Source: Phocaeicola faecium (GTDB lineage Bacteria > Bacteroidota > Bacteroidia > Bacteroidales > Bacteroidaceae). From it: 64,000 nt of DNA. The stretch is taken from the NCBI RefSeq assembly GCF_014837055.1, contig NZ_JACSPQ010000006.1:1-64000 (forward strand), in the 5' to 3' direction. This document shows positions 251 to 58,720 of this stretch, piece by piece. Every line of letters begins with the position of its first letter. The first letter of the stretch is position 1. The position numbers and the translations under genes were made by a program. The notes beneath the pieces are model-generated. The model ran no database searches. It saw nothing but the letters and a program-made list of their open reading frames with translations, and was not told the DNA's origin.

Positions 251-325
251 TTTCTATTCGGAGCGTCACCTATTCCATGCGGTAGAAACAGGCAACGCTT
301 CGGCTTGCGTTTTTGGGAGTGAGAA
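251..325 (+). repeat. Mosaic intergenic repeat, copy R1
   Basis: This copy joins the block TTCTATTCGGAG (252-263), the block CCATGCGGTAG (275-285) and a short hairpin with arms AACGC/GCGTT (294-298 and 307-311) that runs into a T stretch. The same blocks recur in the other R copies in this window. It lies in the otherwise non-coding 1-418 stretch, beyond the yitT terminator; I see nothing coding there. Confidence 0.6.
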
Positions 326-342
326 AATAGGGCATAAAAATA

Positions 343-382
343 CCTCTTTGGTGAAAAAAAGATTGCTTTCTCACCAAAGAGG
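343..382 (-). terminator. Rho-independent terminator after the YitT gene
   Basis: 343-354 and 371-382 form a perfect 12-bp stem. On the minus strand it is followed by TATTTTTA. It lies 37 nt past the stop of the YitT-family gene. Confidence 0.75.
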
Positions 383-418
383 GCAGTAATAATGTGTGAA
401 AAAATTTCTGAGAAGACT

Positions 419-1315
419 TTATTTTATCTTCAACTGGTCGAAACCTTCGCCATATACACCTACCACATTGCTTTGCGAAATAAACGCATTGGGGTCGATA
501 TCTTTCACCAAACGGAATATATCAAGCGACTCTCTTTTCTTTGCCAACACCACGATTACTTTTACTTCTTGCTTGCTGTACCATCCTTGCCCATCGAGCA
601 AGGTTACGCCACGGTCTACTTTTGTTGCAATGGCTTCGGCTATTTTTTCGTACTGCTTCGAAAAAATAAGGAACTGAACCGACTGACGGGCACTGTTTAC
701 CACGTAGTCAATCACAATGCTCATAACAAACAATACACAGAAACCGAACAATACCCGGCGCCAATCGTGAAAGATTAGGTAACAAGACGAAATTATCACA
801 ATATCGCAGTACATCATCATCCGCCCCAGCGTAATGTCTTTGTACTTATTAATAATCCAAGCAATGATGTCGGTTCCTCCCGTGCTTCCGTTGTTACAAA
901 ACACAATCCCAAGTCCGAAACCCAACAGTCCTGCTCCTATCACACACGCCATGAAATCTTGTCCTTCACCAAGCAAACGAGGAAGTTTCCCGTCGTCGTC
1001 TTTCAAAATCATTTGGAAGAACCAAAGCAAGAAAGTCAGCATAAAGATGGCATAGATGGTTTTAACGCTGAATTTCGGTCCTAATATCTTCAAGGCAAAG
1101 CCCAAGAACACGGCATTGATAATAAAATAAGAAATCTGAATTTCGACACCCGTGGCGTAATAAATGATTGCCGCAATACCGGTAACGCCACCCGTTGTTA
1201 TCTGATAAGGCAACAGAAATGCCGCCCACCCGATGGAGTAACAAATCAAACCAAAGGTAATGGCAAGGTAATCTCTTGACTCCCGCCCCAATTTTTTTCT
1301 TAGTAATGCTTCCAC
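419..1315 (-). CDS. YitT family membrane protein with C-terminal DUF2179 domain
   Basis: This 298-residue protein looks like the YitT/DUF161 family: about six hydrophobic segments fill residues 18-206, including the glycine-rich stretches TTGGVTGI (about 40-47) and NNGSTGGTDI (about 141-150). Residues about 214-290 form the cytoplasmic DUF2179 domain, thought to bind a small ligand. Transport substrate is unknown for the family. The start is GTG; an in-frame stop lies two codons upstream and no in-frame ATG is available near the N-terminus. An ATG at 1328 belongs to another frame. It follows leuS by 110 bp on the same strand but has its own -7 box at 1360-1367 and a strong terminator at 343-382. 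Confidence 0.88.
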   Translation of the reverse strand: MEALLRKKLGRESRDYLAITFGLICYSIGWAAFLLPYQITTGGVTGIAAIIYYATGVEIQISYFIINAVFLGFALKILGPKFSVKTIYAIFMLTFLLWFFQMILKDDDGKLPRLLGEGQDFMACVIGAGLLGFGLGIVFCNNGSTGGTDIIAWIINKYKDITLGRMMMYCDIVIISSCYLIFHDWRRVLFGFCVLFVMSIVIDYVVNSARQSVQFLIFSKQYEKIAEAIATKVDRGVTLLDGQGWYSKQEVKVIVVLAKKRESLDIFRLVKDIDPNAFISQSNVVGVYGEGFDQLKIK

Positions 1316-1359
1316 GTTTTATTGACATTAAGTTATACGAAACGCAAACGGGGATTACA

Positions 1360-1367
1360 CAAACTTA
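1360..1367 (-). promoter_or_regulatory. -7 box for the YitT gene
   Basis: Minus-strand TAAGTTTG matches TAnnTTTG and lies 45 nt before the GTG start, between leuS and yitT. I see no clear -33 box. Confidence 0.4.
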
Positions 1368-1425
1368 CGATATTGCTTTTGACCGTATCATTCGTGTAAC
1401 CCCCGTATGCAAGAATACTTATTTG

Positions 1426-4260
1426 TTAAAGTACAATATTAACAATCTTCTTAGGAACAATAATCACTTTCTTCGGAGTTTTTCCGGCAATCCATTTCTG
1501 TGATTGTTCTTCGCTCATTACTGCCGACTGGATGGTATCGTTATCTGCATCGGCTGGAAATTCCATCACAAAACGCGCCTTTCCGTTGAAAGAAATAGTA
1601 TATTTCACCGTATCTTCTTTCAGATAAGCTTCATCGTAAGCAGGCCAGTGTGCGTCGCATACCGAAGTAGCATTGCCCAATGCTTCCCAAAGCTCTTCCG
1701 CCAAATGGGGAGCAAACGGAGCCAGTACGACAATCAGGTTACTCAATACGGCTTTGTTACGACACTTCAGCGACGTCAGCTCGTTTACGCAAATCATAAA
1801 CGCACTGACCGATGTGTTGTAAGAGAAGGCTTCGATGTCGCCTGTAACCTTCTTAATCAGCTTATGAATGGCTTTCAGCTCTTCTTTAGTAGCTTCGCCT
1901 TCTGCCGGCAAGAAGTTATCCTGACGATCGTAGAACAGATTCCAAAGTTTCTTCAAGAAACGGTGAACTCCATCTATACCGTTCGTATCCCACGGTTTTG
2001 ACTGTTCTACCGGGCCGAGGAACATTTCGTACATACGCAGTGTATCGGCTCCATATTTCTCAACAATCATATCGGGGTTTACTACGTTATACATCGACTT
2101 ACTCATCTTTTCAACCGCCCATCCGCAGATATACTTGCCGTCTTCAAGAATAAATTCGGCATTGTTATATTCCGGACGCCAGTTTTTAAAGGCTTCCACA
2201 TCCAACACATCGTTTGATACGATATTTACATCTACATGGATGGGAGTAACATCGTACTCGCCTTTCAAGCCGAATGAAACAAACGTGTTGGTGTCTTTTA
2301 TACGATAGACAAAATTACTGCGTCCCTGAATCATTCCCTGATTAATAAGTTTCTGGAAGGGTTCTTCGGTGATGCTTACGCCCAAATCATGTAAGAACTT
2401 ATTCCAGAAGCGAGAATAAATCAAGTGACCGGTAGCGTGTTCGGTTCCTCCCACGTAAAGGTCAACACTCTGCCAGTAACGGTCTGCCTTTTCCGAAACC
2501 AAAGCCTCGTTATTATGCGGATCCATATAGCGCAGGTAATATGCACTTGAACCGGCGAATCCCGGCATGGTATTCAGTTCGAGCGGGAATACAGTCACAT
2601 TATCTATCTTAGCGTTTTCAACCACTTCGCCTTTTTCTACATCCCAAGCCCACTTGGTAGCGTGTCCCAACGGCGGTTCACCCGTTTCGGTGGGTAAGAA
2701 CTTGTCTACTTCAGGCAGTTCGAGCGGCAATTTGCTTTCGTCGATCATGTAAGGCATACCGCCTTTGTAATAAACCGGGAACGGTTCGCCCCAATAACGC
2801 TGCCGACTGAAGATGGCATCGCGCAGGCGATAATTTACTTTCACACGTCCCAAGTTATGCGCCTTTACGTATGTTTTGGTAGCAGCAATCGCCTCTTTTA
2901 CAGTCAGTCCGTTCAGATTCAAATCACAGTAAGGCGTAACTCCGGCTTTCGGTGAGTTGCAAACGATGCCTTCTTTCGCATCGAAACTTTCTTCGCTTAC
3001 GTCACAACCTTCTATCAACGGAATAATCGGCAGATTGAAATGTTTAGCAAAAGCATAGTCGCGGCTGTCGTGTGCCGGAACAGCCATAATCGCTCCCGTT
3101 CCGTATCCCGCCAATACATAATCGCTAATCCAAACGGGAACAGCTTCGCCCGTAAACGGATTAACGGCATACGAACCGCTGAATACGCCGGTTACACGAC
3201 GGTCGGAGATTCGTTCGCGTTCGGTACGTTTTTTTGTCCGGTCAAGGTAAGCCTCTACCTCTGCTTTCTGAGATTCGGTAGTCAACAGCGGAACCAGCTC
3301 ACTTTCAGGAGCCAATACCATAAACGTTACACCGAACATCGTATCGGCACGGGTAGTAAAGATGGTAAATTCCAAATCGCTGTCTTTTACCTTGAAGCGT
3401 ACTTCCGTACCCTCAGAGCGACCAATCCAGTTACGCTGGGTTTCTTTCAAAGATTCCGTCCAGTTGATCGTATCAAGCCCGTCAAGCAAACGCTGTGCAT
3501 ACGCCGACACGCGCAAACACCACTGACGCATTTTTTTCTGCACCACAGGATAACCGCCACGCACCGATACACCGTCTACCACTTCATCGTTAGCCAATAC
3601 CGTTCCCAACTGCGGACACCAGTTTACCATCGTTTCACCCAAGTAAGCAATACGGTAGTTCATCAAAGTCTCCTGCTGTTCTTTTTCAGTCTTAGCTTTC
3701 CATTCATCAGCCGTAAAACTCAGTTCTTCACTGCAAGCAACGTTCAATCCCTCTGTTCCCTGCTGTTCAAAGGCAGCCACCAACTCAGCGACAGAACGAG
3801 CCTGCTGCTTGTCGTTATCATAATAACTGTTGAACATTTTCTGGAATGCCCATTGCGTCCAATGATAATACCCCGGTTCGCAGGTACGGATTTCGCGGTC
3901 CCAGTCGAAACAGAACCCTATTTTATCTAATTGCTCGCGGTAACGATTGATATTGGCAGCGGTCGTAATAGCCGGGTGTTGTCCGGTTTGGATGGCATAT
4001 TGCTCAGCAGGAAGTCCGTAAGCATCATACCCCATCGGATTCAGAACGTTGAATCCTTGCAGGCGTTTGTAACGTGCATAAATATCGCTGGCAATATATC
4101 CCAACGGGTGTCCTACGTGAAGTCCGGCTCCCGATGGATACGGGAACATGTTCAAAACATAAAATTTTTGTTTTGATTCGTCCTCAGTAACTTTATAAGT
4201 ACGATTTTCCACCCATTTTTGTTGCCATTTCTTTTCTATCTCTCTGAAATTATATTCCAT
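1426..4260 (-). CDS. leuS: Leucyl-tRNA synthetase
   Basis: Class Ia aminoacyl-tRNA synthetase that charges tRNA-Leu. The class I HIGH motif appears as HVGH at residues 48-51, after the conserved FPYPSGAGL. The KMSKS loop reads KMSKSMYN in the C-terminal part, and an editing (CP1) region with the threonine-rich TTRADT and [15 protein letters not shown] motifs lies between. The length of 944 residues is normal for Bacteroidetes LeuRS, which carries insertions compared with the 860-residue E. coli enzyme. The reading frame stays open 14 codons further, but I chose ATG at 4260 because [13 protein letters not shown] is the usual N-terminus. It is transcribed leftwards from a -7 box at 4310-4317. 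Confidence 0.97.
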
Positions 4261-4309
4261 AATGAGGGTTTTATTTAATTGATTTTTACGTATTTCTCTC
4301 AAATTTCTG

Positions 4310-4777: not shown

Positions 4778-4780
4778 GCA

Positions 4781-4893: not shown

Positions 4894-5046
4894 AGAGCCT
4901 GTTTAAATTTTCCGATTAAGTATTTTTATCCGCCCCTTTTTGAGTTTGTTTCCGATCTGTTTCCCCGTTTTTACTCGTCAGATAGACCGCTATCATCCTC
5001 GAAACAATTCTCAAACCGCAGGCAGAGCAAAATTTAAACAGGTTCT
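4894..5046 (+). mobile_element. MITE-like element, copy 1
   Basis: The 153-nt element is bounded by inverted ends: AGAGCCTGTTTAAATTTT at 4894-4911 and, reversed, AGAACCTGTTTAAATTTTGC at 5046-5027. It has no coding capacity. A second copy, in the opposite orientation, lies at 48611-48742 and shares most of the interior, but copy 1 has about 20 extra bases near 4975-4995. I could not see a clear target-site duplication. Confidence 0.6.
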
Positions 5047-5110: not shown

Positions 5111-5240
5111 AACGCTACCGTTAGTGTCACTCATCTTATGCGGTAGCGTTGACCAACGCTTCCCATAGAACCGACCGATTCTATGGGAAGAATTTTTCAA
5201 ACGTTTCTATAAAACGTAAGAACCTTAAAATAAAGTTGTT
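5111..5240 (+). repeat. Mosaic intergenic repeat, copy R2
   Basis: Blocks in order: AACGCTACCGTTAGTGT (5111-5127), CTTATGCGGTAGCGTTGACC (5135-5154) and a perfect 12-bp hairpin, 5159-5170 with 5179-5190, around the loop CCGACCGA, then GAATTTTTCA. The tail AAAACGTAAG...CTTAAAATAA also recurs in copy R4. It lies between the 3' end of the rhodanese gene and the MITE-like element. Confidence 0.7.
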
Positions 5241-10375: not shown

Positions 10376-10475
10376 TCAAAACGCAACCGTTAGTTTTGGG
10401 TAACTTATGCGGATAAACCTTCCGGTTCTACCCGAAGCGTTCACCTGCTTTCCGAATAGAATTTTTCAGCCCTCA
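10376..10475 (+). repeat. Mosaic intergenic repeat, copy R3
   Basis: A diverged copy: AAACGCAACCGTTAGTTTTGGGTAA, then CTTATGCGGATAAACC, then GGTTCTACCCGAAGCG and CCGAATAGAATTTTTCAG. The order of blocks matches R2 and R4, but the pairing arms are degenerate. It lies in the gap between the PASTA operon promoter and short RNA copy A. Confidence 0.5.
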
Positions 10476-10621: not shown

Positions 10622-10687
10622 TGTGTTTTTCATAGTATTAGATTTAAGGTTAACAAAAGGTTGGAGTACAGCGGTACTCCTTTTTTT
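10622..10687 (+). ncRNA. Short RNA family, copy A
   Basis: A promoter-terminator cassette with no ORF. The core TTTCATAGTATTAGATTTAA is followed by GGTTAACAAAAGGTT and a 7-bp terminator hairpin (10663-10669 with 10674-10680) plus seven T. It is identical to copy B at 18035-18101 from the -7 box to the T tail, and shares the core with copy C. The architecture (TAnnTTTG promoter, about 65 nt, terminator) resembles the Rfam motif Bacteroidales-1, but I could not compare it directly. Confidence 0.65.
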
Positions 10688-10689
10688 AT

Positions 10690-12447
10690 TTATATGCGTT
10701 GGACTTCTTCCATCACACGCAAGAAATTACCTCCCCAAATACGCTGAATGTCTGCTTCACTATAGCGCTCTAAAAGCAAACGGCGCGTAAAATTTATCAA
10801 TTCCGATGAATCATTACATCCTATGATGCCTCCATCACCATCGAAATCCGTCCCTATTCCTACATGCTCTATTCCCATAATATTAACTATATGGTGCAGG
10901 TGTTCGACGGCATCGCAAATAGTAGCCGGAACGTCCGACCGTAAAAATCCTCCATATAAACAGACTTGAACTACACCTCCTCGGCGAGCGATGGCCCTCA
11001 ACTGTTCATCGGTAAGATTCCGGGGATGCTCGCATAACGCACGGCAAGATGAATGAGAACACACGACGGGAGTACGGCTTATTTCAAGCGTTTCATAAAA
11101 ACTGCGTTCCCCGGCATGAGAAAGGTCGACCATCATCCCCACGCGGTTCATCTCACGTATTACCTGTTCGCCAAATTCACTTACCCCCAAACCTTCATCA
11201 TTATAACGCGCAGAGCCGCAAATATCGTTGTTTCCGTTATGGCACAAAGTCATATATACTACTCCCCTGTTTCGGAAACGCTCTACGTTACGAATATCTT
11301 TCCCGATGGCGTATCCGTTTTCAATCCCCAACATAATGGCTTTCTTCCCTGCCTTTTTCAGCCGGTACAAATCGGCAGGAGTGCGTGCTATGTCTACCGC
11401 CGTACAATTATTGGCTACCATTTCTTCAATGTCGTTCAGCAAACGGTCGGCTTTTGCCGTAGCTGCCAGCAATGCTTCATCCGTCCGTTCTTTCTGAGGA
11501 ATATAAGCCACCATGATAGTAGCGTCTTGCCGTCCTTCGGTCATTTTGTGAAGGTCTACTTTTATCTTCTCGTCGCGCGTGGCAAAATTAATGTTCTGAC
11601 CGAAAAACATGGGTGTGTCACAATGCGAATCCAGTGTAAGTATCCGCTCATGCAGGCGCTTGGCTGCACGGAAAGATTTGGCTTCGCGGATAAACCAGCC
11701 GAAGAGCGGCATCATACACTTGTCACCGTTCAGGATGAAACATTCGGGATGCCACTGAACCCCCAACATTGATTTGTATTCTGTACTTTCAATGGCTTCT
11801 ATCACGCCGTCGGCAGCTCTTGCCGAAACACGGAATCCGGGAGCCGGCTCTGCCACCGCCTGATGGTGAAACGAATTGACCGGCAACGTTCCGGTATTCA
11901 TGATTCGGGAAAGCAGACTGTCCGGTTCGATATTTACCGTATGCGAAGCAAACGCCCGGTCCATATCCTGACTGTGCTTGAGGTGCATTCCCTCCATTTG
12001 TGCATCTATGTCTTGATACAGTTTTCCGCCAAAGGCTGCATTCATAACCTGAATCCCCCGGCAAATACCTAATATAGGAATCTGACGGTTGGCAGCAAGA
12101 CGGGTGAGCAGTAATTCCTGACAGTCTCGGTAAGGGTTAATATTATGTAATTCTTTTATCGGTTCTTCTCCTAAATAAAGCGGATTAATATCCGCTCCCC
12201 CTGTCAATAGAAGTCCGTCCAGATTATCCAACAGATTTATCAAAATGTCAGTATCCTCGAAGGGCGGAATCACAAACGGAATACCTCCTGCTTTCAAAAC
12301 GGATGTATAATATCCCGAAAGCAACATTAAAGTTCCGTCATTGAAATTTCCGGTAATTCCGATAACCGGATGGTCGGTATGATTTGGGAAGCGGTTATGA
12401 AGCGCAGCATACGATTTGTTTATATCAAACGTGCAAGATGTTTTCAT
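10690..12447 (-). CDS. Fusion of class I glutamine amidotransferase-like peptidase (C26) and membrane dipeptidase (M19)
   Basis: Two enzymes are joined in 585 residues. Residues about 25-255 are a gamma-glutamyl hydrolase/PuuD-like C26 domain: LTGGADINP, the nucleophile Cys129 in GICRG, and His233/Glu235 in WHPE. Residues about 268-583 are an M19 zinc dipeptidase: HCD (His275, Asp277), bridging Glu376 in GIENG, His444 in DLSHAG, His465 in SHS, and Asp534 in GTDFDG. No signal peptide is visible, so it is probably cytoplasmic. An obvious inference is sequential hydrolysis of gamma-glutamyl compounds and the released dipeptides. It has a single promoter (12474-12481) and is convergent with short RNA copy A, whose T tail ends 3 nt from its stop codon. 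Confidence 0.85.
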   Translation of the reverse strand: MKTSCTFDINKSYAALHNRFPNHTDHPVIGITGNFNDGTLMLLSGYYTSVLKAGGIPFVIPPFEDTDILINLLDNLDGLLLTGGADINPLYLGEEPIKELHNINPYRDCQELLLTRLAANRQIPILGICRGIQVMNAAFGGKLYQDIDAQMEGMHLKHSQDMDRAFASHTVNIEPDSLLSRIMNTGTLPVNSFHHQAVAEPAPGFRVSARAADGVIEAIESTEYKSMLGVQWHPECFILNGDKCMMPLFGWFIREAKSFRAAKRLHERILTLDSHCDTPMFFGQNINFATRDEKIKVDLHKMTEGRQDATIMVAYIPQKERTDEALLAATAKADRLLNDIEEMVANNCTAVDIARTPADLYRLKKAGKKAIMLGIENGYAIGKDIRNVERFRNRGVVYMTLCHNGNNDICGSARYNDEGLGVSEFGEQVIREMNRVGMMVDLSHAGERSFYETLEISRTPVVCSHSSCRALCEHPRNLTDEQLRAIARRGGVVQVCLYGGFLRSDVPATICDAVEHLHHIVNIMGIEHVGIGTDFDGDGGIIGCNDSSELINFTRRLLLERYSEADIQRIWGGNFLRVMEEVQRI

Positions 12448-17857: not shown

Positions 17858-17980
17858 AAACGCTACGGGTAGCGTTGCTTATTCCATGCGGTAGAGTTGA
17901 CCATTTCTATTCGAAAGACCGCCCGGTTCTACCGTTAGAATTTTTCAGACTTCCGACCGAAACGTAATAGTCTTAAAATA
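17858..17980 (+). repeat. Mosaic intergenic repeat, copy R4
   Basis: Blocks: AAACGCTACGGGTAGCGTT (a small hairpin), ATTCCATGCGGTAGAGTTGACC, TTCTATTCGAAAGACCG, CGGTTCTACCG and TTAGAATTTTTCAG, then the AAACGTAATAGTCTTAAAATAA tail shared with R2. It lies between short RNA copy B and the BNR-4 gene promoter. Confidence 0.65.
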
Positions 17981-18034
17981 AGCTCTTTGTAAAATTGATA
18001 CATCGGATGAATTTACCTACTTAAAGTACGGACA

Positions 18035-18101
18035 TAAAAAAAGGAGTACCGCTGTACTCCAACCTTTTGTTAACCTTAAATCTAATACTATGAAAAACAC
18101 A
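18035..18101 (-). ncRNA. Short RNA family, copy B
   Basis: Minus-strand twin of copy A: identical from the -7 box through the core, the GGTTAACAAAAGGTT stretch and the hairpin (18054-18060 with 18043-18049) to the seven-T tail. It lies just downstream of nadA on the same strand but has its own promoter. Confidence 0.65.
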
Positions 18102-20912: not shown

Positions 20913-22958
20913 ATGTTGAAAAGTATAATTATCTTTTGGATATTAAGTAATTGTGTGTTGACAACCTTGTTGGCTCAATCTGAAGTAACGGCTTGGGAAA
21001 CGTATGTAGATAATGAAAAGGATTTGGCTTACTGGCAAGAACATTATGAAGAACTGAGTGAACTGGCTGAACATCCTTTTAACATCAATACGGTTACTAA
21101 AGAACAGCTTGAACAGCTTCCGTTTTTATCCGACAGACTTATTGAAAACATCTTGTATTACGTATATAAGTATAATCCGATAAAAAGTGAAAACGAGTTA
21201 TGGGGAATAGAAGGAATGGATTATCAGACACAGAATTTATTGCGGCAGTTTATTTATGTAGGAGAAACTACCGAAAATAAACAGAAGTTGACCTTGAAGA
21301 ATCTGTTGAAATATAACAAACAAGAGTTATTAACACGTATTGATATCCCATTAAACAAGAAAGCAGGATATGCGCCTTATCCTCCGGAAGAACTTGCAGA
21401 AAGCCCAAACAAGAAATATTATGGCGATGCGTTTTATCATAACCTTCGGTATAGGTTTCAGTATCGTAATCAAGTGTTTATAGGATTTACGGCTGAAAAA
21501 GATGCAGGCGAACCATTCTTTAAGTTGTATAATCGGAAAGGATATGACTTTTATTCGGCATACGTGTTTTTGCAGGATATAAAGCAGTTGAAAACATTGG
21601 TGGCAGGAAATTATAAAGTAAGCTTTGGTTATGGATTGGTTATGAACACCGGATTCAGTTTTGGAAAGTCAGGAAATAGAAACAATATCCACAGATACGG
21701 AAGCGGTATCGGTAAATATACTTCCGTGAATGAAGCTAACTACCTGCAAGGCATTGGAGCAACTTACCGCTTATCTGCGAAATGGAATTTATCGGCTTGG
21801 TATTCTTTCCGAAACCAAGATGCTCGTGTGGATAATCTGTTTATAAACTCGTTGAAAACGGATGGATATCATCGGTTGAAATCAGATATAGATAAAAAGA
21901 ATACTATTAGTAATCATTTGGTAGGCAGTAATTTAACTTATAATGGCAAATATGTTGAATACGGATTAACTGCTGTTTATAATATTTTTAACATGCCATT
22001 AAATCCCGACTTTCGTCCGTATAATCGTTACTATCCTCGCGGTAGGGATTTTTATAATATGGGGATATTCTACAAATTCTTTTTCCACAAATTTATTTTT
22101 TCCGGCGAAACGGCTGTTGATAAGCAAGGAAGTTTAGCTACACTGTCGGCTTTAAGTTATTCACCATCGGTTAATACTGTTTTTACACTTATCAACCGTT
22201 ATTACGATAAGCGTTATCAGTCGATTTATGCAAATGCTTTTTCCGAGAATTCAAGAATTCAAAATGAAGCGGGTATTTATATCGGATTGGAAACCAATTT
22301 ATTTAGTCGGGTTAAACTATTATGTTATGCCGATTTTTTTTATTTCCCTTATCGGAAATATCAAGTAGATAAAGATAAAACCGTAGGAATGGAAGGAGTA
22401 TTTCAACTGAGTTATTCACCGGTAAATTCACTGTCAATGTTAATAAAATACGGTTATAAGAATAAAGCGAAAAACTATACATCGCCTTCTGATTCCAAGT
22501 ATGTGATACCTGATATACGCCAGCGTTTACACTGTCAACTGACGTATTCGCCGAATGAACAAACCTTGTTGAAAACAGTGGTTGAATATGTTCATTCTTC
22601 TCGCTGGAAGCAGTCGGTTTCCCACGGACTGGCTTTGGGAGGTACGGTTAAAACGGGATGGAAACGATTTCCTGTTCAAGCTGTACTCAGTGGCGTTTGG
22701 TTTAAAACGTCCGATTACAGTTCGCGTGTATATATGTACGAACCCGGTTTGCTGTATGCTTTTTCGATGACTTCATTTTACGGGGAAGGTTTGCGGATGG
22801 CAGTCAATCTGCGTTATGCTGTTAACAAGCGGTTGATAATTCAGGCAAAGTGGGGCATGACAAACTATTCCGATCGCGATAGAATCGGTTCGGGTGCGGA
22901 AGAAATCATGGGAAATAAGAAGTATGATTTACAATTTCAAGCGCGGTTAAAATGGTAG
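20913..22958 (+). CDS. Helix-hairpin-helix protein with outer-membrane beta-barrel
   Basis: Exported protein of 681 residues (signal peptide about 1-22, ending LLAQ). Residues about 50-115 contain ComEA-like helix-hairpin-helix segments (FNINTVTKEQLEQLPFLSDRLIENIL and ENELWGIEGM). The remaining 550 residues are rich in Tyr/Asn with alternating polar/hydrophobic strands and end in ...LQFQARLKW, typical of an outer-membrane barrel with a C-terminal aromatic. Such proteins are common in Bacteroidales; the DNA-uptake idea suggested by the HhH part is untested. It ends just before the R5 hairpin. Confidence 0.72.
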   Translation: MLKSIIIFWILSNCVLTTLLAQSEVTAWETYVDNEKDLAYWQEHYEELSELAEHPFNINTVTKEQLEQLPFLSDRLIENILYYVYKYNPIKSENELWGIEGMDYQTQNLLRQFIYVGETTENKQKLTLKNLLKYNKQELLTRIDIPLNKKAGYAPYPPEELAESPNKKYYGDAFYHNLRYRFQYRNQVFIGFTAEKDAGEPFFKLYNRKGYDFYSAYVFLQDIKQLKTLVAGNYKVSFGYGLVMNTGFSFGKSGNRNNIHRYGSGIGKYTSVNEANYLQGIGATYRLSAKWNLSAWYSFRNQDARVDNLFINSLKTDGYHRLKSDIDKKNTISNHLVGSNLTYNGKYVEYGLTAVYNIFNMPLNPDFRPYNRYYPRGRDFYNMGIFYKFFFHKFIFSGETAVDKQGSLATLSALSYSPSVNTVFTLINRYYDKRYQSIYANAFSENSRIQNEAGIYIGLETNLFSRVKLLCYADFFYFPYRKYQVDKDKTVGMEGVFQLSYSPVNSLSMLIKYGYKNKAKNYTSPSDSKYVIPDIRQRLHCQLTYSPNEQTLLKTVVEYVHSSRWKQSVSHGLALGGTVKTGWKRFPVQAVLSGVWFKTSDYSSRVYMYEPGLLYAFSMTSFYGEGLRMAVNLRYAVNKRLIIQAKWGMTNYSDRDRIGSGAEEIMGNKKYDLQFQARLKW

Positions 22959-22972
22959 CGGATGAATCCTTT

Positions 22973-23035
22973 AAAACTACCGCATGTTTACCTGAACTCA
23001 TGCGGTAGTTTTATATGGTTTATGCGGTAGTTTTT
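22973..23035 (+). repeat. Mosaic intergenic repeat, copy R5, acting as a terminator-like hairpin
   Basis: Here the CATGCGGTAG block occurs three times: 22973-22986 and 22999-23012 form a perfect 14-bp stem (AAAACTACCGCATG) with a 12-nt loop, and a third copy follows (TATGCGGTAGTTTTTT, 23020-23035). It lies 14 nt past the stop of the HhH-barrel gene and could end its transcript. The following 160 bp up to GH92 hold nothing I recognise. Confidence 0.6.
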
Positions 23036-27907: not shown

Positions 27908-28005
27908 AAACGTAGAAAACACAAACGGTAGAACCGCTCGGTCTTCCGAATAGAATTGGTCGACGCTACCGCATGGGATGAGTAACACTAACGGTAGCGT
28001 TTTCT
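27908..28005 (-). repeat. Mosaic intergenic repeat, copy R6
   Basis: Read on the minus strand the blocks are AACGCTACCGTTAGTGTT, ACTCATCCCATGCGGTAGCG, TCGACCAATTCTATTCGGAAG, ACCGAGCGGTTCTACCG and TTTGTGTTTTC. It is one of the best-preserved copies and lies 58 nt past the stop of the susR-like gene in the direction of that gene. Confidence 0.7.
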
Positions 28006-39949: not shown

Positions 39950-39960
39950 CAGGTAAAATT

Positions 39961-40045
39961 TCTACCCATAGAGATGAGTATTTCTATTCGGAGCGTTAGT
40001 TGTTTCTATGGGTAGCGTTGACCGTTCCTATGGGTAGAAAATAAA
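39961..40045. repeat. Mosaic intergenic repeat, copy R7
   Basis: This variant is built on the CCCATAG block: TCTACCCATAG (39961-39971) can pair with CTATGGGTAG at 40006-40015 or CTATGGGTAGA at 40028-40038, with TTCTATTCGGAGCGTTAG between. It lies between convergent susE and the nitroreductase gene, just before the terminator. Confidence 0.6.
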
Positions 40046-44899: not shown

Positions 44900-45322
44900 T
44901 TACCTTACTATAAGAGCTTCTACTCCCAAGCGATAAGAATCAAGTCCGAAACCACAAATCACCCCCTTACATGCGCATGATATCATCGACTTATGACGGA
45001 ACTCTTCCCGTTGATGTACGTTTGATATATGCACTTCGATGACCGGAGCCGTTACGGCACGTATTGCGTCTTGCAGCGCAATGGAAGTATGTGTGTAAGC
45101 TCCCGCGTTCAGAATGATTCCATCATAATTAAACCCAACTTCATGTATTTTGTTTATCATTTCCCCCTCTATATTCGATTGGTAGTAGCTTATTTCTACT
45201 TCCGGGTAGCGTGCCCGGAGGCGTACCAAATAATCTTCGAATGATTCTGAGCCGTAAATAGAAGGTTCACGTTTCCCCAATAAATTGATATTAGGGCCGT
45301 TGATAATTTGTATCCTCATCAT
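44900..45322 (-). CDS. aroQ: 3-dehydroquinate dehydratase, type II
   Basis: Dodecameric type II dehydroquinase of the shikimate pathway, 140 residues. Motifs: INGPNINLLGKREPSIYG with the catalytic Tyr, NAGAYTHTSIALQDAI, and EVHISNVHQREEFRHKS with the catalytic His. Two adjacent ATGs exist; the second (45319) is equally likely. It heads the seven-gene operon, with a -7 box at 45369-45376. Confidence 0.95.
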   Translation of the reverse strand: MMRIQIINGPNINLLGKREPSIYGSESFEDYLVRLRARYPEVEISYYQSNIEGEMINKIHEVGFNYDGIILNAGAYTHTSIALQDAIRAVTAPVIEVHISNVHQREEFRHKSMISCACKGVICGFGLDSYRLGVEALIVR

Positions 45323-45345
45323 CGTATATTTTTCTGAACTTTTAA

Positions 45346-45353
45346 TACTTTTG
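45346..45353 (+). promoter_or_regulatory. -7 box for xerD
   Basis: TACTTTTG fits TAnnTTTG and lies 33 nt before the chosen xerD start. It is only 15 nt from the oppositely directed aroQ box, so the two initially transcribed regions overlap. Confidence 0.5.
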
Positions 45354-45368
45354 TCGAAAAATTTGGGA

Positions 45369-45376
45369 CAAAGGTA
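45369..45376 (-). promoter_or_regulatory. -7 box for the aroQ operon
   Basis: Minus-strand TACCTTTG fits TAnnTTTG, 46 nt before the aroQ ATG. Confidence 0.5.
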
Positions 45377-45386
45377 CGAAAAAAGA

Positions 45387-46322
45387 ATGAAAAGTCAGGA
45401 TAAAAATCAGAAGATTATAATAAAGTATAAGCAATATCTCAAATTAGAGAAAGCGTTATCCGACAATACGGTAGAGGCTTACCTGACGGATTTAGACAAA
45501 CTGTTTGCTTTTCTTACGTTGGAGGGGATCGACTTTACCGAGGTAACGACCGATAATCTGGAGACGTTTTCGGCAGGCTTGCATGACATCGGCATTCATC
45601 CGCGTTCCCAAGCCCGCATCCTTTCGGGCATACGCTCGTTTTACCGGTTCTTGGTGCTGGAAGATTACATCCGGCAAGACCCCACCGAACTGTTGGACTC
45701 TCCGCAGATAGGGAAACACTTGCCCGATGTGCTTACCGTGGAAGAGATAGACAGCCTGATAGGGGCGATAGACCGGGGAAGCCGTGAGGGGCAGCGCAAC
45801 TGTGCCATACTGGAAACGTTGTATAGCTGCGGATTGCGTGTGTCTGAACTCTGTAATCTGAAGATTTCCGATTTATATTTGAACGAAGGCTTCATAAAAG
45901 TAGAAGGAAAGGGAAACAAGCAACGCCTTGTGCCCATCTCTCCGCGAGCCGTCAGCGAGTTGAACGACTATTTTCTTGTCCGGGGAGAAAAGGTGATAAA
46001 GCCCGGATTCGAAGATTATGTATTTATAAGTAACTTCGGCAAGAACATTTCGCGTATTATGGTGTTTCATATTATAAAGGAACTGGCGAATCAGATCGGG
46101 CTGAAGAAAAGCATAAGCCCCCATACCTTTCGCCATTCGTTTGCCACTCATTTGTTGGAAGGCGGTGCGAATTTGCGTGCCATTCAGTGTATGTTGGGAC
46201 ATGAGAGCATCGGAACTACGGAGATTTATACCCACATCGACCGCAACCGCCTGCGTGAAGAAATCATAGAACATCATCCGAGGAACAAAAGAAGCAGGGA
46301 ACTGTATGAGAACAAGCCGTAA
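45387..46322 (+). CDS. xerD: Site-specific tyrosine recombinase XerD
   Basis: Chromosome dimer resolution recombinase of 311 residues. An N-terminal SAM-like core-binding domain (about 10-95) is followed by the catalytic domain with Arg in YSCGLRVSEL, HTFRHSFATHL, GHESIGTTEIYTH (R-HxxR-H-Y). The frame is open back to 45285, but those 34 codons lie over the aroQ start and before the -7 box, so ATG 45387 (MKSQDKNQKI) is chosen. There are no flanking mobile-element genes or attachment repeats, which supports the housekeeping role. Confidence 0.92.
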   Translation: MKSQDKNQKIIIKYKQYLKLEKALSDNTVEAYLTDLDKLFAFLTLEGIDFTEVTTDNLETFSAGLHDIGIHPRSQARILSGIRSFYRFLVLEDYIRQDPTELLDSPQIGKHLPDVLTVEEIDSLIGAIDRGSREGQRNCAILETLYSCGLRVSELCNLKISDLYLNEGFIKVEGKGNKQRLVPISPRAVSELNDYFLVRGEKVIKPGFEDYVFISNFGKNISRIMVFHIIKELANQIGLKKSISPHTFRHSFATHLLEGGANLRAIQCMLGHESIGTTEIYTHIDRNRLREEIIEHHPRNKRSRELYENKP

Positions 46323-46363: not shown

Positions 46364-46460
46364 AAAAACACTACCGTTAGTGTTGCTCGTTCCATGCGGT
46401 AGCGTTGACTGACGCTACCCATAGAACCGACCGGTTCTACCGCTTGCGTTTTTTCAGGGT
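46364..46460 (+). repeat. Mosaic intergenic repeat, copy R8
   Basis: Blocks: AACACTACCGTTAGTGTT (perfect small palindrome), CGTTCCATGCGGTAGCGTTGAC, ACGCTACCCATAGAACCGACCGGTTCTACCG and GCTTGCGTTTTTTC. It starts about 40 nt after xerD in the same direction and may end that transcript. Confidence 0.7.
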
Positions 46461-48610: not shown

Positions 48611-48742
48611 AGAGTTTGTTTTAATTCTGCTCTGCCTGCGGTTTGAGAATTGTTTTCGAGGATGAAAACAGGGAAACAGACCGGAAACAAACTCAAAAAG
48701 GGGCGGATAAAAAGACTTCATCGGAAAATTTAGACAGGCTCT
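48611..48742 (-). mobile_element. MITE-like element, copy 2
   Basis: Inverse copy of the element at 4894-5046: on the minus strand it begins AGAGCCTGTCTAAATTTTCC and shares the central CCGCCCCTTTTTGAGTTTG and ATTCTCAAACCGCAGGCAGAGC stretches. At 132 nt it lacks about 20 bases present in copy 1, and its other end is degenerate (AGAGTTTGTTTTAATT). Non-coding. Confidence 0.6.
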
Positions 48743-51386: not shown

Positions 51387-51480
51387 AAAACGCTACCGTT
51401 AGCGTTACCTATCTTATGCGGTAGTGTTTACCTGTTCTTCCCATAGCGTTGAGCAGTCTAACGGGTAGAATTTTTCAAGG
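51387..51480 (+). repeat. Mosaic intergenic repeat, copy R9
   Basis: Blocks: AAAACGCTACCGTTAGCGTTACC (7-bp palindrome), TATCTTATGCGGTAGTGTTTACC, TTCCCATAGCGTTGAGCAGTC and ACGGGTAGAATTTTTCAAGG. It lies between convergent comM and GH97 genes. Confidence 0.68.
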
Positions 51481-53528: not shown

Positions 53529-53622
53529 GATATCTTTCATCTGTTGTTTTATTTCCAATAAAATATAAACTTATCCCGAAGACACCTTTTTACTTGATGG
53601 ATAAAACCGTTTACGAACGGAC

Positions 53623-53691
53623 AAAAAAAATGGGAGAACGCTTTCTCCCAACCTTGTTAACCTTAAATCTAATACTATGAAAAAAATCACG
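53623..53691 (-). ncRNA. Short RNA family, copy C
   Basis: Shares the core TTTCATAGTATTAGATTTAA and GGTTAACAAGGTTG with copies A and B, but the terminator hairpin has a different sequence (8 bp, 53643-53650 with 53631-53638, TGGGAGAA/TTCTCCCA) with pairing kept, followed by eight T. It lies upstream of the retaining GH97 gene, same strand; its terminator precedes that gene by about 95 nt. Confidence 0.62.
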
Positions 53692-53950: not shown

Positions 53951-54961
53951 CTATTCCCTGCGCAGCGGATAATTTCCCCGCAACTGTTCGAACTGTTCGG
54001 GATGTGCGCGTAGTGCAGCGCAATCGCGGCGGGGGTCATATAGCTGAAGGATGCGGGTATTCTCATCATCCGAAAGAGCAAGCATCGGAGTGCCGGCAGG
54101 CTGAATGTGGAAATCGGCAGGCTTGTTGAAAAAGCGGCAAAAGGCTTCCAGCACCATGCGGGTGGCATTGGCTTTTCCATCGGCAGAGTAACCGGCTATG
54201 TGCGGCGTTCCGATAAACACTTTATCAAGCAGTTCCCGGTTAATGTCAGGTTCGTTTTCCCACACATCGATAATCGCACCGTTTACTTGCCCGCTATCCA
54301 GCGCCTCTAATAACGTGCGGGTATCGATAACTTCGCCACGAGAGGTATTGATAATGTAAGGTTTTCGGCACAATCCGGTAAAGAAAGAATGGTCGGCAAG
54401 ATGGTAGGTAGCATATTTACCCTCTTTATCCAGCGGTGTATGAAAAGTAAGAATGTCGCATTCTTGTTCCAATGTCTGCAAAGAAACAAATCCTTTCTCA
54501 CCTCGGTCGGCACGGGGCGGGTCGTTTAGTAAAACACGCATACCCAATCGTTGTGCCATAGCCGCTATCCGGCTGCCTACGTGTCCTACGCCGATTATGC
54601 CTAAACACGTATCCGATAAGTGAATTTGTTTTTCTTGCTCCAGCAGCAAGAGCGAAGCGTGTACATACTGTTCCACTGCTCCCGCATTACATCCCGGACA
54701 ATTACTCCACGCAATGCCTGCGCTACGGCAATAATCCGTATCTATGTGGTCAAACCCGATCGTTGCCGTCCCGATGAAGCGGACCCGGCTTCCTTCCAGC
54801 AGTTGCCGGTTACAGTGTGTGCGGGTGCGGATAATCAGTGCCTCGGCATCTTTCACCGCTTCTGGCGTAAACGCTTCACCCGGTAAGTAAACCACCTCGT
54901 CTGCCAAGTGCGGCATAACCTCTCGGATATAAGGTATTTTGTTATCAACTATAACTTTCAT
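53951..54961 (-). CDS. pdxB: 4-phosphoerythronate dehydrogenase
   Basis: D-2-hydroxyacid dehydrogenase family enzyme of vitamin B6 synthesis, 336 residues. PdxB-type N-terminus (MKVIVDNKIPYIREVMPHLADEVVYLPG), IGTATIGFDHID, SNCPGCNAGAVEQYV, the NAD-binding GIIGVGHVGSRIAAMAQRLGM, INTSRGEVIDT with catalytic Arg, and GTPHIAGYSADGK with catalytic His. Start ATG 54961 rather than 54991, because the -7 box at 54991-54998 overlaps the latter. Confidence 0.92.
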   Translation of the reverse strand: MKVIVDNKIPYIREVMPHLADEVVYLPGEAFTPEAVKDAEALIIRTRTHCNRQLLEGSRVRFIGTATIGFDHIDTDYCRSAGIAWSNCPGCNAGAVEQYVHASLLLLEQEKQIHLSDTCLGIIGVGHVGSRIAAMAQRLGMRVLLNDPPRADRGEKGFVSLQTLEQECDILTFHTPLDKEGKYATYHLADHSFFTGLCRKPYIINTSRGEVIDTRTLLEALDSGQVNGAIIDVWENEPDINRELLDKVFIGTPHIAGYSADGKANATRMVLEAFCRFFNKPADFHIQPAGTPMLALSDDENTRILQLYDPRRDCAALRAHPEQFEQLRGNYPLRRE

Positions 54962-54990
54962 TTCTTTTTCAATCTCCTTTACAAGGGGCA

Positions 54991-54998
54991 CAAAGGTA
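54991..54998 (-). promoter_or_regulatory. -7 box for pdxB
   Basis: Minus-strand TACCTTTG fits TAnnTTTG, 30 nt before the ATG. Confidence 0.5.
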
Positions 54999-55018
54999 AC
55001 TACTTTATGCCGAATATA

Positions 55019-55050
55019 ATTGCGGGAATAGAAATCTTTACCTATTTTTG
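55019..55050 (+). promoter_or_regulatory. Promoter of the glf operon
   Basis: ATTG at 55019-55022, a 20-nt spacer and TATTTTTG at 55043-55050, 23 nt before the glf ATG. Confidence 0.55.
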
Positions 55051-55072
55051 CTTTTCAAGATATTAAAACGGT

Positions 55073-56182
55073 ATGAGCAAGAAGCAATATGATTATTTGA
55101 TTGTGGGAGCGGGGCTTTTCGGAGCAGTATTCGCTCATGAAGCCAAGCGTGCCGGAAAGCATTGTTTGGTGATTGATAAACGTAATCATCGGGGAGGAAA
55201 CATCTACTGCGAAGACGTAGACGGCATTCATGTGCATAAGTATGGCGCGCATATTTTCCATACAGACAATAAGGAAGTATGGGACTACGTAAATCGGTTT
55301 GTAGAATTTAATCGTTATACCAATTCGCCGTTAGCCTGTTTCGAGGGAAAGTTATATAACCTTCCTTTCAACATGAATACGTTTTATCAGCTTTGGGGAG
55401 TAAAGACGCCGGCTGAAGCGAAAGCCAAGATAGCCGAACAACGCCGGAAATACGATGCTATCTCCGAGCCCGCCAATCTGGAAGAGCAGGCTTTGAAACT
55501 CTGCGGAGAAGATATTTACCATACACTGATAAAGGGGTATACCGAAAAGCAGTGGGGACGTTCTGCAACGGAATTGCCGGCTTTTATCATCAAGCGTGTT
55601 CCGTTCCGTTTTATTTTCGATAATAACTACTTTAACGACGGTTATCAAGGAATCCCGAAAGGAGGATATAATGTGTTGATTGACCGGCTGCTGGAAGGTA
55701 CAGAAGTTAGGCTTGACACAAACTACTTCGAACATCGCGACGAGTTGGATGCTTTGGCAGACAAAATTTTATTTACCGGATGTATTGACGAATTCTTCGA
55801 CTATCAGTGCGGACGCTTGGAATACCGCAGTTTGCGTTTTGACCATAAACGTCTGGAGATAGAAGACTTTCAGGGAAATGCCGTGGTGAATTATACGGAA
55901 GGTAGTGTTCCTTATACGCGAATAATTGAGCACAAACATTTTGAGTACGGTACGCAGCCTACAACCGTCATTACCTACGAATATCCTGATTCATTCGAGG
56001 CTGGTAAAGAGCCTTATTATCCGGTAAACGACGAACGTAACTCTGCCATGTTTGCCGAATATCAGAGACTGGCAGCGAAGAAAGAGAATGTGTTGTTCGG
56101 AGGACGGTTGGGACAATATACTTATGCCGACATGGACGATACCGTGGCTGCCGCATTGCAGCTCTGTGCCCAAGTTTTATAA
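55073..56182 (+). CDS. glf: UDP-galactopyranose mutase
   Basis: FAD enzyme that converts UDP-galactopyranose to UDP-galactofuranose. The 369 residues carry the FAD dinucleotide motif IVGAGLFGAVFA, KRNHRGGNIY, YGAHIFHTDN with the key His, NLPFNMNTFYQLWG, TEKQWGRSATELPAF and the C-terminal GRLGQYTYADMDDTVAAAL. It heads a four-gene plus-strand run with two GTs and a WaaP-like kinase, so galactofuranose is presumably built into LPS or another surface glycan. Confidence 0.95.
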   Translation: MSKKQYDYLIVGAGLFGAVFAHEAKRAGKHCLVIDKRNHRGGNIYCEDVDGIHVHKYGAHIFHTDNKEVWDYVNRFVEFNRYTNSPLACFEGKLYNLPFNMNTFYQLWGVKTPAEAKAKIAEQRRKYDAISEPANLEEQALKLCGEDIYHTLIKGYTEKQWGRSATELPAFIIKRVPFRFIFDNNYFNDGYQGIPKGGYNVLIDRLLEGTEVRLDTNYFEHRDELDALADKILFTGCIDEFFDYQCGRLEYRSLRFDHKRLEIEDFQGNAVVNYTEGSVPYTRIIEHKHFEYGTQPTTVITYEYPDSFEAGKEPYYPVNDERNSAMFAEYQRLAAKKENVLFGGRLGQYTYADMDDTVAAALQLCAQVL

Positions 56183-56207
56183 TCATCTTATTTAGTCTGA
56201 TAAAAAT

Positions 56208-56924
56208 ATGAAATGCCTTCATGTACTAACTCCCGTAAAAGATTCGATTGATTTCACTCTCGAAACCATTGAAGCCATCATGCAGTCGGAGGTAACCGTA
56301 CCTTTTACTTATACCGTCTATAACGACTTCAGTACCGAAGAAAATACCCGGCGGCTGGAAGAGGCTTCTCGCCGTTATGGTTTCCGTTTGATAAATTTGT
56401 CGGATGTAACAAGCCACCCTTCTCCTAACTATTTGTTGGTGTTGCAGATGGCGCAACAAGAAGCCCTTGCAGCCGATGCAGGAATGTTGATTGTCGAATC
56501 GGACGTAGTCGTGAAGAAAGATACGCTTCAGTCACTCTTTAACGGTGCGGCAGAGCGAGGCGACTGTGCGATAGCCGCAGCCGTGACCGTAGACGAAACG
56601 GGAGCGATTAATTATCCTTACCTTCATGCGAAAGGCAACGAAGGGAAAATATATCCGGAAAAGAAGCATTGCAGCTTCTGCTGTTCGCTGCTTACGCCGA
56701 AATTTCTGCAAACATACGATTTCCATCAGTTAGACCCGGCAAAGAACTGGTACGATGTAACCATCTCTCACGAAGCGTTGAAGAAAGGATTCCGAAACTA
56801 TCTTTTCGCCAACCTCCCCGTATGGCATCGTCCGCACGGAAGTCGTCCGTGGAAACAATTGAAATACAAGAATCCGCTGAAGTATTATTGGCTGAAGTTC
56901 ACGAAAGGGCTGGATAAAATCTGA
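56208..56924 (+). CDS. GT-A fold glycosyltransferase family protein
   Basis: The 238-residue protein has a GT2-like nucleotide-binding start (MKCLHVLTPVKDSIDFTLETIEAI, TYTVYNDFSTEENTRRLEE) and an acidic VESDVVV segment at the position of the metal-binding DxD. It ends in a basic stretch (WKQLKYKNPLKYYWLKFTKG). Donor and acceptor are unknown. It lies 25 nt after glf and 12 nt before the kinase gene. Confidence 0.72.
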   Translation: MKCLHVLTPVKDSIDFTLETIEAIMQSEVTVPFTYTVYNDFSTEENTRRLEEASRRYGFRLINLSDVTSHPSPNYLLVLQMAQQEALAADAGMLIVESDVVVKKDTLQSLFNGAAERGDCAIAAAVTVDETGAINYPYLHAKGNEGKIYPEKKHCSFCCSLLTPKFLQTYDFHQLDPAKNWYDVTISHEALKKGFRNYLFANLPVWHRPHGSRPWKQLKYKNPLKYYWLKFTKGLDKI

Positions 56925-56936
56925 TAGTAGGAAGTT

Positions 56937-57677
56937 ATGAGTCTGTTCAATCACCGTACACTTGTCGTACATGCCGCATGTAAAGACTTGGAATCATTCG
57001 TGTTGTCCGTCCCCGAACGTTTCGAGCGGGGAGAGGGAACCGTGATTCACAAGGGACGTAACGAATTGCGCAAAATAACCTACGGCGGACGCTCGTTTGT
57101 GGTAAAGTCATTCCACCGACCCAATCTCATCAATCGTTTTGTATACGGAGTGTTTCGCCCCTCCAAAGCAAAACGTTCGTATGAACACGCCCAACTGTTC
57201 TTGGAGGCAGGCGTAGGAACTCCCCGTCCGGTAGGTTATCTGAATATCCGCAAAGGCTTGCTGTTCGACCGCAGCTATTACGTCACTTACGCCTCCGAGT
57301 GTCCGTATACCTACGAAGCCCTGTTTAAGCAGAAGTTTGATTACGAAGACGATGTAATACGCGCCGTTGCCCGCACCACAGCCATCCTTCATGAGCATGG
57401 CTATGCCCATAAGGACTACGGACGCGGAAACATTCTGTTCGGTAAAACAAGCGAAGGAATCAAGATCGAAATCGTAGACCTCAACCGCCTTTCGGTAGGT
57501 AAACTCGACCTGCGTGCCGGATGCAAGAATTTGGAACGCCTGCCCGCCACGCCCCACATGCACCGGGTTTTTGCCGACGAATATGCCCGTTTGCGCGGCT
57601 TCGATGCCGAAGAGTGTTATAAGCTGTTGGTTGCATTCCGCAGCACGCAGCCCGGAAAAATTGACGGACTTTATTAA
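56937..57677 (+). CDS. WaaP/KdkA-like lipopolysaccharide kinase family protein
   Basis: A kinase-like fold of 246 residues. The catalytic loop is HKDYGRGNILF (HxD...N) and the metal-binding motif is VDLNRL in place of DFG. An N-terminal Lys (FVVKSF) would bind ATP. The family phosphorylates Kdo or heptose in the LPS core, and the context (glf, GTs, MsbA-like exporter, LpxL-like acyltransferase) fits LPS core modification. Confidence 0.82.
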   Translation: MSLFNHRTLVVHAACKDLESFVLSVPERFERGEGTVIHKGRNELRKITYGGRSFVVKSFHRPNLINRFVYGVFRPSKAKRSYEHAQLFLEAGVGTPRPVGYLNIRKGLLFDRSYYVTYASECPYTYEALFKQKFDYEDDVIRAVARTTAILHEHGYAHKDYGRGNILFGKTSEGIKIEIVDLNRLSVGKLDLRAGCKNLERLPATPHMHRVFADEYARLRGFDAEECYKLLVAFRSTQPGKIDGLY

Positions 57678-57686
57678 TACTGGCTT

Positions 57687-58583
57687 ATGAAGATTATAGC
57701 TGTGGTTGTAACATACAACCGGAGAGAATTGCTGAAGCGGAATATCGGTTGCCTGCGGCAGAATACACCGCTCCATTCCATTGTGGTAGTAAACAACGGC
57801 AGTACCGACGGAACGAAAGAGTGGTTGGACGAACAGACGGACTTACGTGTGATTCACCAAGAGAATGTTGGCGGTTCGGGTGGCTTTTATACCGGTATCC
57901 GATACGCTTTTCAGGAGGGAGCCGACTGGATTTGGTGTATGGACGACGATGTGTTTCCGCGCCCCGACTGCTTGGAACATCTGCTTCCGCACACTGCCCG
58001 TCCCGATGCGGGGATTCTCGCACCGCGCCGGCTGATGGAAGGCAAGATATTCACCAACGATTTCCGGCAGGTCAACCTCACCAATCCGTTCGCATCCATG
58101 TATCAGGACAAACTGAAAAAGCAGGTGGTAAATGCTCCCACAGAGATATGCGGCACAGCTTTCGAAGGACTGTTTATCCGCCGGGAAGCGGTAGAGAAAA
58201 TCGGTCTGCCCAACAAGGAACTCTTTATCTTCTGCGATGATACCGACTACTGCCTGCGCGCGGTATTGGCAGGATATAAAATATGGTACATACCCGATGC
58301 GCTGATGGATAAAGAAAAATTCTTTTCAAATGATACGTGGAAAGAGCGCAATCGGAAAAAGAAATGGAAACGATTCTACCAAGTACGTAATGCAGCCTAT
58401 CTGAACCACCGTTACGGGCGTAACTGGGCGGTAAAATACCTCCGCAGCTTCAATGCCGTATTGGGTTACATGCTGACGGTTCTGCTTACAGCCCCCTTTA
58501 CCGATGCTTATCGGTTCAGCGACCTTGCCAAATTCTGGAAAGCCTATACCGATGGGGTTAACGAGCGGTTAGGCAAGTATTAA
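57687..58583 (+). CDS. GT2 glycosyltransferase, galactofuranosyltransferase-like
   Basis: The 298-residue enzyme has VVVTYNRRELLKRNI, VVNNGSTDGTKEWL, the ENVGGSGGFYTGIR motif and the metal-binding WCMDDDVFP, a set typical for GlfT-like GT2 enzymes; FIFCDDTDYCLRA holds the catalytic Asp. Together with glf three genes upstream, transfer of galactofuranose is the likely role. A paralog lies at 61638. It is the last gene before copy R10. Confidence 0.82.
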   Translation: MKIIAVVVTYNRRELLKRNIGCLRQNTPLHSIVVVNNGSTDGTKEWLDEQTDLRVIHQENVGGSGGFYTGIRYAFQEGADWIWCMDDDVFPRPDCLEHLLPHTARPDAGILAPRRLMEGKIFTNDFRQVNLTNPFASMYQDKLKKQVVNAPTEICGTAFEGLFIRREAVEKIGLPNKELFIFCDDTDYCLRAVLAGYKIWYIPDALMDKEKFFSNDTWKERNRKKKWKRFYQVRNAAYLNHRYGRNWAVKYLRSFNAVLGYMLTVLLTAPFTDAYRFSDLAKFWKAYTDGVNERLGKY

Positions 58584-58626
58584 CGAGCGGTTTAAGAGCC
58601 AAGAAAATTCCTTGCGGTTTGTGCCG

Positions 58627-58720
58627 CAAAATGCTACGGTTAGTATTTTAAATTCATGCCGATAAACGATGCAGTTCTATTCGGAAGACTGACGACTCTT
58701 CCGAATAGAATTTTTGAGCC
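58627..58720 (+). repeat. Mosaic intergenic repeat, copy R10
   Basis: Contains AAATGCTACGGTTAGTATTTT, ATTCATGCCGATAAACGATG and a perfect 14-bp hairpin of the TTCTATTCGGAAGA block (58675-58688 with 58697-58710) followed by TTTTTGAGCC. It lies between convergent GT2 and ABC transporter genes and probably ends transcription from the GT side. Confidence 0.68.

Follow-up and report, generated by a model that had tools for sequence, protein, structure and literature searches.

Here we describe a family of short tandem arrays dispersed through the genome of Phocaeicola faecium, which came to attention at ten sites in the first 64,000 nt of contig NZ_JACSPQ010000006.1 (positions 1-64,000, the window, to which all gene and site coordinates below refer). 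The original prediction had seen at these sites a mosaic of a few short blocks, shuffled from copy to copy and in places facing each other as hairpins. The blocks or variants of them are present at all ten sites, and the sequence contains each of the perfect hairpins described for R2, R5, R7 and R10. The repeats are genuine, and their order goes beyond that description: all ten sites share one layout of four 18-bp units separated by 4-bp gaps, giving a 22-bp period, with the unit pattern RRYNCWWNSSNWWGNRYY.

Array layout and half-word rules

Total mismatches to the unit pattern range from 1 to 9 at nine of the window sites, with all four units in phase, and the tenth, R10, has lost a single base (Table 1). 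R1 begins before position 251, where it had first been placed. Among 153 close unit pairs in 464 kb of the genome, the unit-to-unit distance was 22 bp in 133 and 44 bp in 12, and 45 copies align across 92 columns (alignment A1; copies were picked by profile E-value, 46 having passed and one being left out, a procedure that favours gapless copies). Unit columns hold ~1.0 bit against 0.03-0.3 in the flanks, a difference inflated by the arrays having been picked by the unit pattern. The slots adjoining the first and last units on the outside carry 6.54 and 6.73 mismatches, respectively, against a genome mean of 7.45; since these outer slots are near background, the unit number is four.

The core of each unit is its inner ten bases, which form a pair of 5-nt half words set face to face. 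The set of half words is small (CTACC, CTATG, CTAAC, CATGC, CATCC, CTTCC, CTACG, CAACC, CAAGC, CTTGC and others), GTAG is present in many words, and the shuffled blocks first reported are half words in new pairings. Pairing rules were scored on the 465 units with no more than two mismatches. No unit paired two identical half words (0/465, against 72 expected by shuffling) or had a palindromic 4-nt centre (0/465, against 136 expected), and in 432 of the 465 CC terminates just one of the halves, its partner ending mostly in GC, TG, AC or CG. Positions covary most strongly inside a half word and across the centre of a unit, and weakly from one unit to another. The words are species-specific and the layout is common to other Phocaeicola; in a second species (genome G025), whose arrays mostly have four to six units, palindromic centres number 8 of 134 against 45.6 expected. 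A ban on palindromic units in all species was considered and rejected, being broken by 22-bp arrays built on the perfect palindrome CATACGTATG in three further genomes (L317 in G005, L307 in G020 and L308 in G002).

Table 1. Arrays and other dispersed features in the window
Feature	Position	Strand	Remark
Array R1	228..311	-	strand via profile match; four units at 22 bp
Array R2	5111..5194	+	adjoins unrelated MITE (about 4895-5045)
Array R3	10380..10463	+	
Array R4	17859..17942	+	
Array R5	22951..23034	.	unit 1 overlaps end of gene 20913-22958 by 8 nt
Array R6	27918..28001	-	
Array R7	39958..40041	.	
Array R8	46367..46450	+	missing at corresponding place in six other Phocaeicola genomes
Array R9	51389..51472	+	
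Array R10	58630..58712	+	one-base deletion after unit 1
Unrelated MITE	about 4895-5045		
Unrelated MITE	about 48612-48742		
FopS sRNA	10623-10690	+	RF04319
FopS sRNA	18033-18100	-	RF04319
FopS sRNA	53620-53690	-	RF04319

Copy number, mutual exclusion and distribution

The genome contains 57 occurrences of the family 13-mer GGTAGCGTTGACC, with one mismatch allowed, and 3 of the reversed pattern, and a sequence profile matched all 150 of the candidates scored (1442 were found). Using a word-free test that calls an array at nine or fewer mismatches summed over four units, we counted 127 arrays in a 1.264-Mb sample of the genome, and the same test gave 0 arrays on each of the reversed sequence, the complement-only sequence and periods of 20, 21, 23 and 24 in the same 1.264 Mb. 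These controls exclude chance and bear out the proposal of an intergenic mosaic family extending genome-wide. Part of the sample (400 kb) was partly selected around motif hits; the 800 kb chosen independently of them hold 69 arrays (127 less 58), about 86 per Mb, which extrapolates to a whole-genome total of roughly 300. Spacing was analysed both on the 127 arrays and on a set of 137 called with a looser test (1 in the reversed control), and matches nearer than 60, 110 or 180 bp were merged, depending on the analysis.

Intact arrays exclude one another at the kilobase scale in both species. Across six long stretches of this genome the minimum inter-array distance is 2666 bp and most distances are 3-12 kb; none of 115 is below 2 kb and two are below 3 kb, where random intergenic placement gives about 12 and 23, respectively. 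Among other intergenic regions of at least 130 bp, the share holding an array climbs with distance from a given array, from 0/70 at 0-2.5 kb to 4/36 at 2.5-3.5 kb, 15/46 at 3.5-4.5 kb and 42/92 at 4.5-6 kb, the baseline share being 0.37. G025 has 43 arrays in 600 kb with a minimum distance of 4415 bp, and 0 of 31 distances in two long stretches are below 3 kb (5.3 expected, P 0.001). The behaviour resembles target immunity in that intact arrays keep apart over kilobases, unlike an unrelated miniature inverted-repeat transposable element (MITE) relative to arrays: it lies within 2 kb of an array in 21 of 38 cases against 21.2 expected (standard deviation, sd, 3.0), that is, with no exclusion.

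The unrelated MITE, with two copies in the window, has the ends GAGCCTGTTTAAATTTT and, by eye, 3-bp TNA duplications; its 38 loci in the 1.264-Mb sample were identified by these ends with three or fewer mismatches, and it was found in genomes G084 and G017 too. The longest array-free gap of the sample, 111.6 kb (G000 C1:306714-418325), carries conjugative-element genes (TraG, ArdC, primase) and has uneven G+C. Arrays show a weak tendency to be oriented with the G-rich strand (64/106, p 0.04).

A profile built from five genomes matched 14 of 61 Phocaeicola genomes at E values up to 1e-4, this genome included, and gave no match in 47, G011 among them; these figures refer to the matches listed, and match counts with the genus profile take both strands of one array. 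When 393 genomes sampled from the order were scanned, each with 11 candidates scored, this genome was the sole match. None of 80 named leuS loci had an array, the nearest named relatives by leuS, P. coprocola included, sharing 91%; no empty site was established in named relatives, synteny being too short, and two pattern scans of viral contigs found no arrays. Arrays here and in G025 do not lie at orthologous positions (odds ratio 1.08, p 1.0): of the syntenic regions, 1 has an array in both, 5 in this genome only, 1 in G025 only and 15 in neither. The place of R8, beside xerD (45285-46322), lacks an array in 6 of 6 other genomes. Hypervariability of the arrays was entertained and set aside: the orthologous pair in G001 and G084 differs at 13 of 88 positions, and the pair in G017 and G067 at 2 of 110, like its flanks. 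The flanks of the G001/G084 pair differ by 0-4% on the left, and on the right by 10-18% just beside the array and then by 0.5-3%.

Hairpins, gene context and transcription

No single conserved fold was found in the 45 aligned copies (RNAalifold, -1.3 kcal/mol). Units forming perfect inverted pairs 11 nt or longer were seen in 38 of the 127 arrays, where shuffling units within slots gives 18.4. In the word-divergent half of the arrays such pairs number 20/58 against 6.3 expected (sd 2.4), direct pairs show a smaller excess (11 against 6.1, sd 2.0), and the folding energy is -27.35 against -23.17 kcal/mol (sd 0.57); the half nearest the common words shows no inverted-pair excess (18/69 against 16.9, sd 2.4). 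The hairpins first noticed are partly beyond chance, through copying within the element, kinship or selection, and kinship among copies can add to the inverted-pair excess. Of the suggested swapping of stem modules under a constant fold, the excess of inverted pairs in the word-divergent half survives, while a single conserved fold and an excess in the other half do not. Stem exchange at the RNA level was also rejected, or at least weakened, as the main rule, given the lack of a consensus fold, the little complementarity between units in an early test on 46 arrays and the limitation of the later excess to word-divergent copies. A search of the window with Rfam 15 at gathering score returned three matches to the FopS paralogous small RNA (sRNA), none at an array; the three copies sit near R3 and R4 and ~2 kb from R9.

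Genes were called in this genome and in G025 with a simple custom open reading frame (ORF) caller. Of the intergenic regions of at least 130 bp, 60/183 tandem, 32/73 divergent and 22/47 convergent regions bear an array; 7 of the 127 arrays overlap a predicted ORF and 6 lie at stretch ends. The statement that none lies in a gene is right for the window save for the 8-nt overlap of R5, and wrong for the seven in the larger sample, and a position at the 3' end of a transcription unit, claimed for most copies, is not general, as the array-bearing divergent regions demonstrate. Arrays avoid gene starts (10th percentile of distance 78 bp), lie nearer the stop in 43 of 60 tandem regions and match the orientation of tandem genes in 29 of 56. 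Arrays in G025 occupy 21/78 tandem, 8/51 divergent and 12/35 convergent regions, with 2 at stretch ends, divergent regions being poorer there. Terminator-like hairpins outside the array were present in 6/22 convergent, 10/60 tandem and 2/32 divergent array-bearing regions, and in 17/61, 25/212 and 0/67 array-free regions, respectively.

Terminators and protection of mRNA 3' ends had been suggested as functions, and neither is supported by the orientation of the arrays or by the 20 of 127 that are terminator-like. The arrays might instead be bidirectional terminators or insulators, in which hairpins between units, followed by outward T-runs, would halt transcription arriving from either direction. 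T-runs of four or more that point outward are found at 97/127 right ends and 102/127 left ends, the U3/U4 folding energy is -11.4 kcal/mol against -9.7 (sd 0.37) for slot shuffles, and G025 arrays are scarcer in divergent than in convergent or tandem regions, all of which fit this explanation. We nonetheless consider it unlikely, because a terminator finder passes so few arrays, hairpins outside the array are about equally frequent with and without arrays, 32 of the 73 divergent regions of this genome hold arrays, orientation preference is absent and the kilobase-scale exclusion is left unexplained. Less likely again is a structured RNA family whose units pair mutually and whose stems are kept through compensatory exchange; the inverted unit pairs above slot shuffles among word-divergent copies would follow from it, but the other half shows no excess, a consensus fold and a strand preference are both absent, no Rfam match falls at a window array site, and several G025 arrays contain direct repeats.

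Proposed mobility, chromosome architecture and known systems

Arms related between copies flank some of the arrays and are weak. After removal of flanks with the unrelated MITE, and with a cut above 15,500 shuffles, arm relatives were found on the left of 23/122 arrays, on the right of 24/118 and on both sides of 7. A looser count (62 left, 59 right and 32 both, of 125) was discarded as inflated by the unrelated MITE flanks and by its low cut (2000 shuffles). In looser-cut alignments 28 of 64 left arms end 62-70 nt from the array, and those on the right stop anywhere between 28 and 86 nt. On visual inspection, the distal portions of the arms are inverted (left GAACTTATTTAAACTTT, right reversed GAGCTTGTTTAAACTTT) and resemble the ends of the unrelated MITE. 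Array flanks in G025, read outward, are alike above the shuffled maximum in 49 of 3655 pairs, one top pair of which looks like a different repeat; an apparent other dispersed repeat lies beside two arrays of G025 near 33 and 39 kb of C50 (L213).

We tentatively favour, at somewhat below even confidence, a reading of this family as mobile arrays of putative protein-binding sites with target-immunity-like spacing. The element would be mobile and non-autonomous, its core an array of 22-bp-phased putative sites for a dimeric DNA-binding protein, each composed of two half words face to face; with two helical turns per unit, bound protein would line up along a single face of the helix, and a minority of copies may retain arms that form a MITE-like unit of about 200 bp. 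Such elements would have spread independently in each lineage into intergenic DNA, where an intact array would block the insertion or persistence of another over a range of about 3 kb, in the manner of transposition target immunity. We infer each of the three components, namely protein binding, mobility and immunity as the cause of the spacing. Binding by protein is plausible, and the fixed phase, the fixed unit number and the two-half sites favour a DNA-bound protein over an RNA. Three features suggest that the family originated as a mobile element of the core chromosome, namely that it spread independently in two lineages, that some copies have arms and that the conjugative element is free of arrays. 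Target immunity would be expected to keep arrays away from one another and not from another MITE; selection for even spacing of chromosome sites would yield the same.

Several observations weigh against this reading. Most copies have no detectable arms, and the lower arm recount moved our estimate for this reading as a whole from nearly even to somewhat below, while making selection on chromosome architecture slightly less doubtful. Target-site duplications were looked for at the array edges and not found. The Y1_Tnp domain (PF01797) has 0 matches in the genome, where 5 of 14 control genomes match; Mu-transpos_C was found in 0 of 12 array-bearing genomes tested and in no control genome, and G066, which had no arrays by the genus profile, has a match; five DDE_Tnp_1 loci lack matching ends and an array, other transposase families not having been searched. 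The extra DNA at R8 amounts to 365-373 bp, which exceeds one element. An orthologous array persists in G001, G084 and G017 (with a 22-nt gap and five substitutions between G017 and G001), so that some arrays are old. Finally, two decayed remnants that fall below the array detection threshold are close to intact arrays, L045:1542-1603 at a distance of ~240 bp and L050:4233-4272 immediately adjacent, so that the exclusion is limited to arrays that are intact.

No report of these arrays was found in the literature searched, most subscription journals being outside its reach. The ends of Tn7 and Mu carry 22-bp sites for TnsB and MuA, four of them at the right end of Tn7, and both transposons display target immunity. 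Our arrays resemble these ends in their ~22-bp sites and in the exclusion of a second insertion nearby, and differ in that Mu-transpos_C was absent from the array-bearing genomes tested and that the units are near-palindromic and of mixed direction. Plasmid iterons, repeated at about 22 bp or two helical turns, have the same period, but our arrays are dispersed over the chromosome and have near-palindromic units and several words. BrickBuilt of Porphyromonas gingivalis is a MITE with 19 copies in ATCC 33277, 1 to 22.8 repeats per element and terminal inverted repeats that resemble those of IS5-family elements (PMC4596501). Both families belong to Bacteroidales, are intergenic and consist of tandem short units, those of BrickBuilt being 23 nt long, always intergenic and set in a MITE-like element with arms and inverted ends (PMC4596501). 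The arrays here are not 23-nt direct repeats in variable number; they number 127 in 1.26 Mb, have four 22-bp units, obey half-word rules and exclude one another.

The original prediction proposed a family like the repetitive extragenic palindrome (REP) or bacterial interspersed mosaic element (BIME) and advised looking for a REP-associated tyrosine transposase (RAYT); palindromes of this type would be mobilised by a RAYT or an IS200/IS605-like enzyme. Abundant intergenic imperfect palindromes and composite structures characterise REP, BIME and REP doublets forming hairpins (REPIN) with RAYT (PMC3733652, PMC2817692, PMC3116915), and the arrays are likewise high-copy intergenic imperfect palindromes, many with GTAG in their words. 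We regard this origin as highly improbable, since the search for a RAYT recommended at the outset gave no Y1_Tnp match, a consensus fold is lacking, and the arrays keep a fixed 22-bp phase and are rigidly four-unit, which a REP is not. The main competitor, which we hold to be rather unlikely, is that the arrays are chromosome-organising sites, bound by a nucleoid or segregation protein and held at a spacing of a few kb within the core chromosome by selection. It would account for distances of mostly 3-12 kb here and of 4.4 kb or more in G025, for conjugation genes in the single long array-free gap, for the contrast in information between unit columns and flanks (inflated as it is by pattern-based picking) and for the weak co-orientation with the G-rich strand, but 47 of the 61 genus genomes have no match, array positions in this genome are not conserved in G025, and the arms common to some copies look as though they had spread as a unit.

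Mobile arrays with immunity-like spacing and sites that organise the chromosome may also be combined. Possibly, if doubtfully, these are genus-level dispersed arrays in which a protein reads exactly phased 22-bp sites of interchangeable half words and a bound array bars others for ~3 kb on each side, so that the family would distribute itself over the core chromosome, a self-spacing mobile element that would be becoming, or serving as, a chromosome-wide scaffold. Bacterial dispersed repeats are usually viewed as scattered irrespective of one another. A family that keeps its distance from itself in two species with different words makes it possible to test, in common gut bacteria, whether target immunity or selection on architecture sets the spacing, and the half-word rules, with their fixed phase and two unlike halves per site, offer ready bait for finding the protein.

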